From Leptolyngbya sp. FACHB-261 (GTDB lineage: Bacteria; Cyanobacteriota; Cyanobacteriia; FACHB-261), in the NCBI RefSeq assembly GCF_014696065.1, contig NZ_JACJPL010000010.1:1-64000 (forward strand): 64,000 nucleotides of DNA, given 5' to 3'. Position 1 is the first letter of the stretch; each line of letters starts with the position of its first letter. Both the position numbers and the translations under genes were made by a program. Positions 47,979 to 49,776 of this stretch are shown piece by piece. Under the pieces are notes generated by a model that searched no databases, was not told the origin of the DNA, and saw only the letters and a list, made by a program, of their open reading frames with translations.

Positions 47979-48320
47979 TCAACGTTTAACGGGTTGCTCG
48001 ATCCGCCCTTCTAGCTTATCTAGCCGCTCTGTTACCTGCTCTAACGTTTCCTGAAGCTGCTGGATTTGTTGACTCAAGTTTTTAAGCTGAAAGTCACTAT
48101 CGAGCTTACGAAAGGGTGAGGCGCCTAGAGCCGATAGAATCTTTTCAACTGTCGAAAAACTGGGGTCATAGTCGGGATCATTGAGAATACGGGTGATTTG
48201 CTGGGTGAAGCCCAAGTCACTGCCGCCATTCTCCGCTGCGATCAAACTCGATAACCGTCGAATACTGATTTTCTGAACCTTCATTAGCGTGCGAATCAAC
48301 TCCACCACACTGGCTTGCAT
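47979..48320 (-). CDS. Small HTH-like protein with coiled-coil tail
   Basis: 113 residues. An XRE-like helical segment covers about 18-70 (ISIRRLSSLIAAENG, FTQQITRILNDPDYDPSFST, VEKILSALG), then a coiled coil (about 80-108, LSQQIQQLQETLEQVTERLD). No recognised family name. Resembles small DNA-binding regulators of the XRE type. A separate gene after the terminator at 48442-48475. Confidence 0.75.
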   Translation of the reverse strand: MQASVVELIRTLMKVQKISIRRLSSLIAAENGGSDLGFTQQITRILNDPDYDPSFSTVEKILSALGASPFRKLDSDFQLKNLSQQIQQLQETLEQVTERLDKLEGRIEQPVKR

Positions 48321-48441: not shown

Positions 48442-48475
48442 AAAAAAACCAGCAGGACGGCAAGGCTCCTGCTGG
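48442..48475 (-). terminator. Terminator of the three-gene small operon
   Basis: CCAGCAGG and CCTGCTGG (48449-48456, 48468-48475), followed on the minus strand by seven T. It is 60 bp after the last gene of the operon. Confidence 0.9.
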
Positions 48476-48535
48476 CAAGGTCACTCACACTTGAATAACT
48501 CACAGTTAAAAGTTTCTAAGGCAGCACCCAAGAAC

Positions 48536-48904
48536 CTATAGTCCTACCAATTCACGGGACTCCAAGCCAGTAAGCTTCTGAGCAATGGTGAGTCTTGCTT
48601 CTAGCTTGGCAACGCTAAAGGCATTGCGCAGACGCTCTAGCTCGGCGATGGCATTGGACTTTTCGGTGGTCAGGCGCAACAGCGTATTGACCCCGCGCGA
48701 ATACTCCAGATTGGACTGAAGCACTTCGAAGCGACGGGCTTTGCGCTGGGCATCGTTTTTAAGGTGGTTCTCGAAGGCCACAACCATCTCGGCACTGCCC
48801 TCTAAACGAGCAATGTGGGCACGGGCTTCGGCAATGCGCTCATCAATGTCGTTGGCAGTTTGAGCGGCACGGGCAATGGCGGCGGGGTAATCACTTAGAT
48901 GCAT
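48536..48904 (-). CDS. Helical coiled-coil protein, third gene of the LexA-box operon
   Basis: 122 residues from ATG 48904, with AGGAAG eight bases upstream. Helical throughout: IDERIAEARAHIARLE (about 19-34), ENHLKNDAQRKARRFEVLQ, TTEKSNAIAELERLRNAFSV. No Cys. Highly charged coiled coil. Faintly like phage-type nuclease-inhibitor or gp157-like helical proteins, but I do not assign a family. It ends before a strong terminator. Confidence 0.75.
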   Translation of the reverse strand: MHLSDYPAAIARAAQTANDIDERIAEARAHIARLEGSAEMVVAFENHLKNDAQRKARRFEVLQSNLEYSRGVNTLLRLTTEKSNAIAELERLRNAFSVAKLEARLTIAQKLTGLESRELVGL

Positions 48905-48958
48905 AAGGCTTCTTCCTAAATCCAAGGAATTCCAAACGTTGAACCTTGAGACCAAACG

Positions 48959-49228
48959 CTAAGCAACCAATTCTTCCAGCTGAGGCAGGGGGGCTGGCAT
49001 GGACGGTTCAGACAAATGTTCAGAGGGCTTCTCTGGCAGGGGGGAGTGCTCTAGCACGTCTACTTCGAGGCGCACCGAAATCAGATAGGAGCCGTTCTGA
49101 TCACCAACCGTCTGAGCAATCAGCTGGGCTAGATCAGGACGTTCAGCCGTAATTGGATCGCGTAGAACACAACGGTCCCATTCGTAGCGAGCGTCCGGAT
49201 CTAGGTGAAGGATGTAGTGCTTGGTCAT
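48959..49228 (-). CDS. Small protein of unknown function, second gene of the LexA-box operon
   Basis: 89 residues. The N-terminal half is compact (YILHLDPDARYEWDRCVL, LAQLIAQTVGDQNGSYLISV) and the C-terminal third is Pro/Glu-rich and probably disordered (SPLPEKPSEHLSEP). One Cys. No family recognised. Spacers of 52 and 54 bp separate it from its neighbours on the same strand. Confidence 0.7.
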   Translation of the reverse strand: MTKHYILHLDPDARYEWDRCVLRDPITAERPDLAQLIAQTVGDQNGSYLISVRLEVDVLEHSPLPEKPSEHLSEPSMPAPLPQLEELVA

Positions 49229-49280
49229 GGGCTAGAACTTGAACTCACTCTTATTATTGTAGTGCAAAGACACAACAAGA

Positions 49281-49613
49281 TCAAGCAGCTAGACTGGCTG
49301 GCAAGGGGCGCTGACGAGCGTCAAGTCGGTCTCGCCCAGCCAGACGTTTTGCCAGGTCTAGATGCCCCCAAACTCGCACCTCAAGTGGCCAGGTCATGAC
49401 CTCTCCTGCCTGCAAGCTAAAGGGGATGCTCCGCGCTGCCAAAGACTGCGTGAACCGCCGGGCTGAGCGCAAATCGCTGAAGCCAAACACGCAGATTTCG
49501 GAAGCGCCGAAGCGGAATTGGGAGCGCCGAAAGGGAGTTCGCACCACCAAAACTCGGTCAGACAAGTACTGTCCAACGCGGCCCTCACCCAGGGAAAAAA
49601 AGCGACTACTCAT
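49281..49613 (-). CDS. Small protein of unknown function, first gene of the LexA-box operon
   Basis: 110 residues. A mixed alpha/beta look (DRVLVVRTPFRRSQF, ICVFGFSDLRSARRFTQSLA, PLEVRVWGHLDLAKRLAG) with a basic C-terminus. Its first half resembles small sheet-and-helix nucleic-acid or protein-binding folds, but no family can be named. About 128 bp of leader separate it from the promoter/LexA box. Confidence 0.72.
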   Translation of the reverse strand: MSSRFFSLGEGRVGQYLSDRVLVVRTPFRRSQFRFGASEICVFGFSDLRSARRFTQSLAARSIPFSLQAGEVMTWPLEVRVWGHLDLAKRLAGRDRLDARQRPLPASLAA

Positions 49614-49741
49614 AGCGCGACACCTGGTGACTGCTGTTTCTCTATTTTAGAAAATGTGTAGTGGGTTTGCACTCCGAAACCTCACTGCATCTTGTCGTGG
49701 TCTCCCCCACACCGAGGGACGGAAATCCGACCGGGATTTAT

Positions 49742-49776
49742 AGTACAAATGTACTCTCTAGTTGGGGTTTTGTCAA
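49742..49776 (-). promoter_or_regulatory. Sigma-70 type promoter overlapped by a LexA-like box
   Basis: On the minus strand TTGACA (49771-49776) is 17 bases from TACATT (49748-49753). The palindrome AGTACAAATGTACT (49742-49755) covers the -10. It fits the published cyanobacterial LexA consensus RGTAC-N3-D-GTWC-B. It therefore predicts DNA-damage control of the leftward operon. Binding is inferred; hisH on the other side starts about 150 bp away. Confidence 0.75.

Follow-up and report, generated by a model that had tools for sequence, protein, structure and literature searches.

A small chromosomal operon behind a conserved LexA-type box in cyanobacteria

Comparison across cyanobacteria shows that a LexA-type operator lying over a promoter is kept in front of P2, or of P1 and P2, genes for small proteins that form an operon with a third gene, P3, in Leptolyngbya sp. 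FACHB-261. Because this box is retained before the same genes in nearly all relatives checked, the operon very probably belongs to the cyanobacterial response to DNA damage as a real component that had not been described before. We favor, with moderate confidence, its reading as a chromosomal LexA-regulon operon with transient, degron-limited expression, a judgement that covers the regulatory core together with this mode of expression. The finding bears on the range of genes under cyanobacterial LexA and on whether this repressor drives a true SOS response. With a box retained ahead of the same uncharacterised genes in 12 of 13 families, comparison clearly points to a conserved LexA target outside the textbook set, three families devoid of annotation gain a damage-response role that can be tested, and timed destruction is suggested to be part of the design.

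The operon was read in a 64-kb window (i.e., the whole stretch of DNA analysed, 64,000 nucleotides). The host genome (6.95 Mb) is the sole member of its own family and order in the genome collection searched, and the locus is chromosomal and adjoins a glutamine-amidotransferase (hisH-like) gene. According to the window sequence and its open reading frames, three leftward frames with their promoter and terminator span positions 49,776-48,442 of the minus strand, and the features of the region are as follows.

49748..49776, minus strand: promoter-like TTGACA-17-TACATT, from a motif scan
49742..49755, minus strand: LexA-type box AGTACATTTGTACT, a perfect 14-bp palindrome overlapping the promoter
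49742-49737, minus strand: alternative -10 TATAAA, directly after the box, as TATAAT/AAAAT in relatives
49655..49675, minus strand: motif B before P1, GGAGTG-CAAACC-CACTACACA, a palindrome, locus-specific in relatives
49281..49613, minus strand: P1, 110 aa, predicted alpha/beta protein with the tail -SLAA
49256..49276, minus strand: motif B before P2, GTTGTG-TCTTTG-CACTACAAT, overlapping the promoter-like TTGATC-17-TACAAT
48959..49228, minus strand: P2, 89 aa, the most conserved partner of the box, with the tail -ELVA
48536..48904, minus strand: P3, 122 aa from ATG, conserved, with relatives in mobile elements
48442..48475, minus strand: intrinsic terminator, a stem-loop followed by seven T, from sequence and folding
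47979..48320, minus strand: PX, 113 aa, weak Cro/C1-type helix-turn-helix match and coiled coil

These coordinates bear out the three leftward genes of 110, 89 and 122 residues proposed in an earlier, sequence-only reading, in which P3 was taken for a charged coiled coil (a putative assignment), with the addition that the P3 frame could also begin at a TTG farther 5', giving 139 aa. The hairpin with a seven-T run that was said to close the unit was recovered as well, with a 10-bp stem, a 9-nt loop and seven U after it (-18 kcal/mol, z -2.4). The proposed TTGACA-17-TACATT promoter is present at 49776-49748 and does overlap the box, but TACATT as its -10 is uncertain: TATAAA is predicted to be at least as likely, since the box of relatives runs straight into TATAAT or AAAAT (TATAAT typically follows it directly in loci without P1). 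That the unit is run from the box promoter stands for this promoter but not for its being the sole one, as a separate promoter-like site for P2 (TTGATC-17-TACAAT, 49284-49256, minus strand) is conserved in relatives. At about 49229-49250 of the window, just 5' of the P2 start, lies a short element like GATTCAAGTTCT, which recurs in relatives before the starts of P1, P2 and PX (many loci, some P1 genes).

The box matches AGTACNNNNGTACT with 0 mismatches and is the only such site within the window. Genome-wide, this pattern occurs at 8 sites in 6.95 Mb (0 for the reversed control pattern), while across eleven genomes the excess over the control is modest (52 vs. 33), so that the bare count proves little and it is position and conservation that carry weight. 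Li et al. 2010 (PMC3091678) published 48 cyanobacterial LexA sites; on a LexA matrix made from them the box scores 20.9 bits, the top site seen reaching 21.5. A second perfect box AGTACATTTGTACT was seen in the same genome at positions 1501-1514 of locus L006 (G000:C31:87872-90885), where it precedes a leftward operon encoding an AAA_24 ATPase (PF13479). The AAA_24 family includes phage recombination ATPases.

Box conservation was assessed by scoring the 300 nt 5' of the first gene in 70 P2-carrying loci with the LexA matrix and a cut-off of 12 bits. A box was present before the first gene in 55 of these loci, compared with 1.1% of random 300-nt segments from the same loci and 0/70 with the reversed matrix, and eight more loci carrying P1 have it before P2 instead. 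Absence of the box from orthologous loci had earlier been named as an argument against the proposal; it was found to be kept before P1 or P2 in 63/70 loci covering 12 of 13 families, counts that are not independent, as the loci come from related genomes. Nine families contribute a single locus each, and eight of these are boxed; the loci below 12 bits are six of the 29 from family f16 and the single one from f40. On this comparative evidence the box follows P2, the core gene, and P1 is optional. In another family (f31, loci L106-L133) a conserved leader, CACAAAGCC...GGCTCTGTG, lies between the box and P2 and could form a stem.

The regulator was examined in the same genomes. The lexA gene is itself boxed (at least 11 bits, same matrix) in 29/30 of the P2-carrying genomes checked; in the host its box is GATACAAATGTTCT (15.3 bits), and the host LexA keeps the Ala-Gly cleavage site as well as the Ser and Lys typical of a repressor that cleaves itself. 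With the operon box conserved, lexA boxed and the host LexA of the self-cleaving type, LexA is predicted to be much the likeliest ligand, the alternative being another protein with the same site. The LexA control first read from the window alone is thus strongly backed by comparison, and we regard it as highly likely, with induction by DNA damage being likely. A box of at least 12 bits precedes recA in 13/30 genomes, and none at this level was found with the same matrix upstream of the host's own recA. In loci L150, L172, and L173, LexA has Ala-Thr rather than Ala-Gly at the cleavage site, and cleavage may differ there.

Of 390 cyanobacterial genomes that are largely complete, 77 (from 41 of 157 genera) carry P2, about 36 have a clear P1, and P3 occurs in 87 when distant relatives are counted. 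Where P1 is present, the genes almost always run P1-P2-P3, and many such loci have PX 3' of the operon. P1 is missing from the large family f31, which has P2 and in some cases P3. The three-protein module of the sequence-only reading therefore needs qualification: P2 and the box form the conserved core, usually with P3 next to it, but P1 is limited to part of the clade. The claim that the genes are of unknown function held, as P1, P2, and P3 had no significant match in Pfam, NCBIfam, PHROGs, PADLOC or PDB sequences. Fold searches gave no recognisable relative for P1 or P2: the P1 search (Foldseek) returned weak LAGLIDADG/WhiA, ribosomal-protein and eIF1-like matches (best E 0.24, Z about 5), and that for P2 (model pLDDT 74) returned none. 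P2 had 0 matches in viral contigs and plasmids. None of the three genes was found as a known LexA target in the openly accessible main-text literature searched.

A shared feature of P1 and P2 is their C-terminus, which is [AVLI]A in 65/70 loci for P2 and in 26/31 for P1, against a background of 11/268 for long open reading frames and 0/43 for P3, while the linkers before these tails vary greatly. The tmRNA tag of the host ends in -TVLA. Judged by sequence, the tails fit an ssrA-like degron pattern, which suggests that both proteins are short-lived. At loci with distant P3 relatives, such tails occur on the upstream small protein (24/28) and on the P3 relative (36/56), compared with 38/991 of the neighbouring open reading frames.

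A second palindrome, motif B (GTAGTG-N6-CACTACAAT), lies before P1 and P2 in most loci carrying P1. Its exact pattern has nine matches in eight genomes, all nine at the operon locus. Of 31 loci with P1, 19 have both motif B and PX, 4 have motif B without PX, 8 have neither and 0 have PX without motif B (Fisher 6e-5, uncorrected for relatedness), and both are missing from all 39 loci without P1. This tracking implies dual control of the operon, and PX is probably the regulator acting at motif B. It is a better candidate than P1, because the eight P1-carrying loci that lack motif B all lack PX too, which weakens the case for P1 as binder. Autoregulation of PX was unsupported, as no motif B was found in front of PX in the loci examined, and an NtcA site was dropped since the spacing is GTA-N12-TAC and not N8. 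Motif B shares with the LexA box its AGT-N8-ACT geometry and its position with respect to the -10, and possibly descended from a LexA site. Of the simple LexA regulation initially proposed, the LexA part is retained, but the locus-specific second palindrome and the internal promoters imply more.

P3 relatives can occur without P1 and P2, and they were found in integrase-bearing plasmids and viral contigs, beside Cro/C1 repressors and annealing proteins. We read 56 loci with distant relatives of P3; in half of them a small gene lies immediately upstream, and several have a divergent Cro/C1 gene. DdrB-like proteins are near six of them (two nearly identical), Rad52-type proteins near two (L215, L275) and DUF932 proteins near three, of which one DdrB, one Rad52 and two DUF932 were confirmed with Pfam and the rest called by similarity to these. 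A LexA box of at least 14 bits lies within 1.1 kb upstream in 11/56 loci (control 0/159). A second type of LexA-boxed operon, consisting of a small gene, a P3 relative and a 200-aa protein without annotation, was observed in other cyanobacteria (L223, L250, L251, L253, L254, and L258). On one chromosome, a stretch of about 100 kb (G023:C1:4771300-4876500; L215-L217, L240) contains several P3 relatives, in mobile-element-like surroundings. Gene neighbourhood links P3 to LexA through two operon arrangements and, in mobile elements, to genes for annealing proteins. Since low-identity relatives adjoin DdrB, Rad52 or DUF932 genes, we tentatively propose a role for P3 around single-stranded DNA; this link comes from about 11/56 distant relatives and from none in the operon itself, and is one of neighbourhood only, as Pfam, PHROG and PDB sequence searches gave no homology of P3 to Rad52, DdrB or DUF932.

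Taken together, DNA damage would lead to cleavage of LexA and a burst of P1, P2, and P3, after which ClpXP-type proteases would remove P1 and P2 via their ssrA-like tails, making the response self-limiting. PX would bind motif B at the P1 and P2 promoters as a dedicated extra control, P3 would act around single-stranded DNA or its annealing or recombination, and P1 and P2 would be short-lived partners or modulators. In its complete form, i.e., a previously undescribed, LexA-released SOS module found widely in cyanobacteria in which degron-tagged P1 and P2 transiently tune a P3-family annealing or recombination factor with PX as second repressor, this model is speculative and rather doubtful.

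Other explanations fit parts of these data. LexA does not act as an SOS repressor in every cyanobacterium (PMC3091678, PMC4759255), and in Synechocystis it has been tied to carbon, redox or salt state (PMC4759255, PMC7567884), so that the operon could be LexA-controlled and yet serve such a response, as the unboxed recA of the host would also allow; the cleavable type of the host LexA, the other perfect box heading the AAA_24 ATPase operon and the boxed recA of 13/30 relatives argue against this, and we consider it quite unlikely. A domesticated early region of a phage or plasmid, with PX as the former element repressor and LexA control as a relic of prophage induction, is unlikely: it would agree with the P3 relatives in integrase plasmids and viral contigs near Cro/C1 repressors and annealing proteins, but P2 is unmatched in viral contigs and plasmids, and the locus is chromosomal, adjoins the hisH-like gene and is widely conserved. 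Domestication may describe the origin of the operon rather than its present function. Very unlikely is a LexA-released module of the toxin-antitoxin or growth-arrest kind, with P1/P2 as unstable antitoxin and P3 as effector, since no family match to a toxin or antitoxin was found, P1 is often missing while P2 stays, and P3 relatives exist without P1 and P2, even if the small genes, their unstable-looking tails, the operon-specific operator and the helix-turn-helix gene recall such systems.

The favored reading, a LexA-regulon operon with degron-limited expression, can be set beside several known systems. The N-terminal fragment of LexA is destroyed via an exposed C-terminal ClpXP degron (Neher 2003, as cited in PMC5742171), and the E. 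coli LexA fragment and other SOS proteins degraded by ClpXP are likewise damage-response proteins with an exposed C-terminal degron; P1 and P2, however, bear the degron-like tail at their native C-terminus, and their degradation is predicted. The Arthrospira arh cluster encodes gamma-ray-induced proteins of unknown function and an XRE regulator (PMC4398503), resembling P1-P3 with the helix-turn-helix gene PX, but Arthrospira lacks LexA and the likeness is one of cluster make-up. P3 relatives adjoin single-strand annealing genes of the DdrB/Rad52 kind in mobile elements, whereas no annealing gene was found in the operon of the window and P3 is not homologous to these proteins by the searches made. 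For cyanobacterial LexA itself, a consensus RGTACNNNDGTWCB was reportedly given by Mazon in 2004. The main text of Li et al. 2010 (PMC3091678), in which the P1-P3 genes were not found named, gives AGTACWNWTGTACT. With the cyanobacterial LexA regulon the operon shares box sequence, spacing and promoter overlap, as well as a boxed lexA in the same genomes, and to this it adds a second, locus-specific operator.
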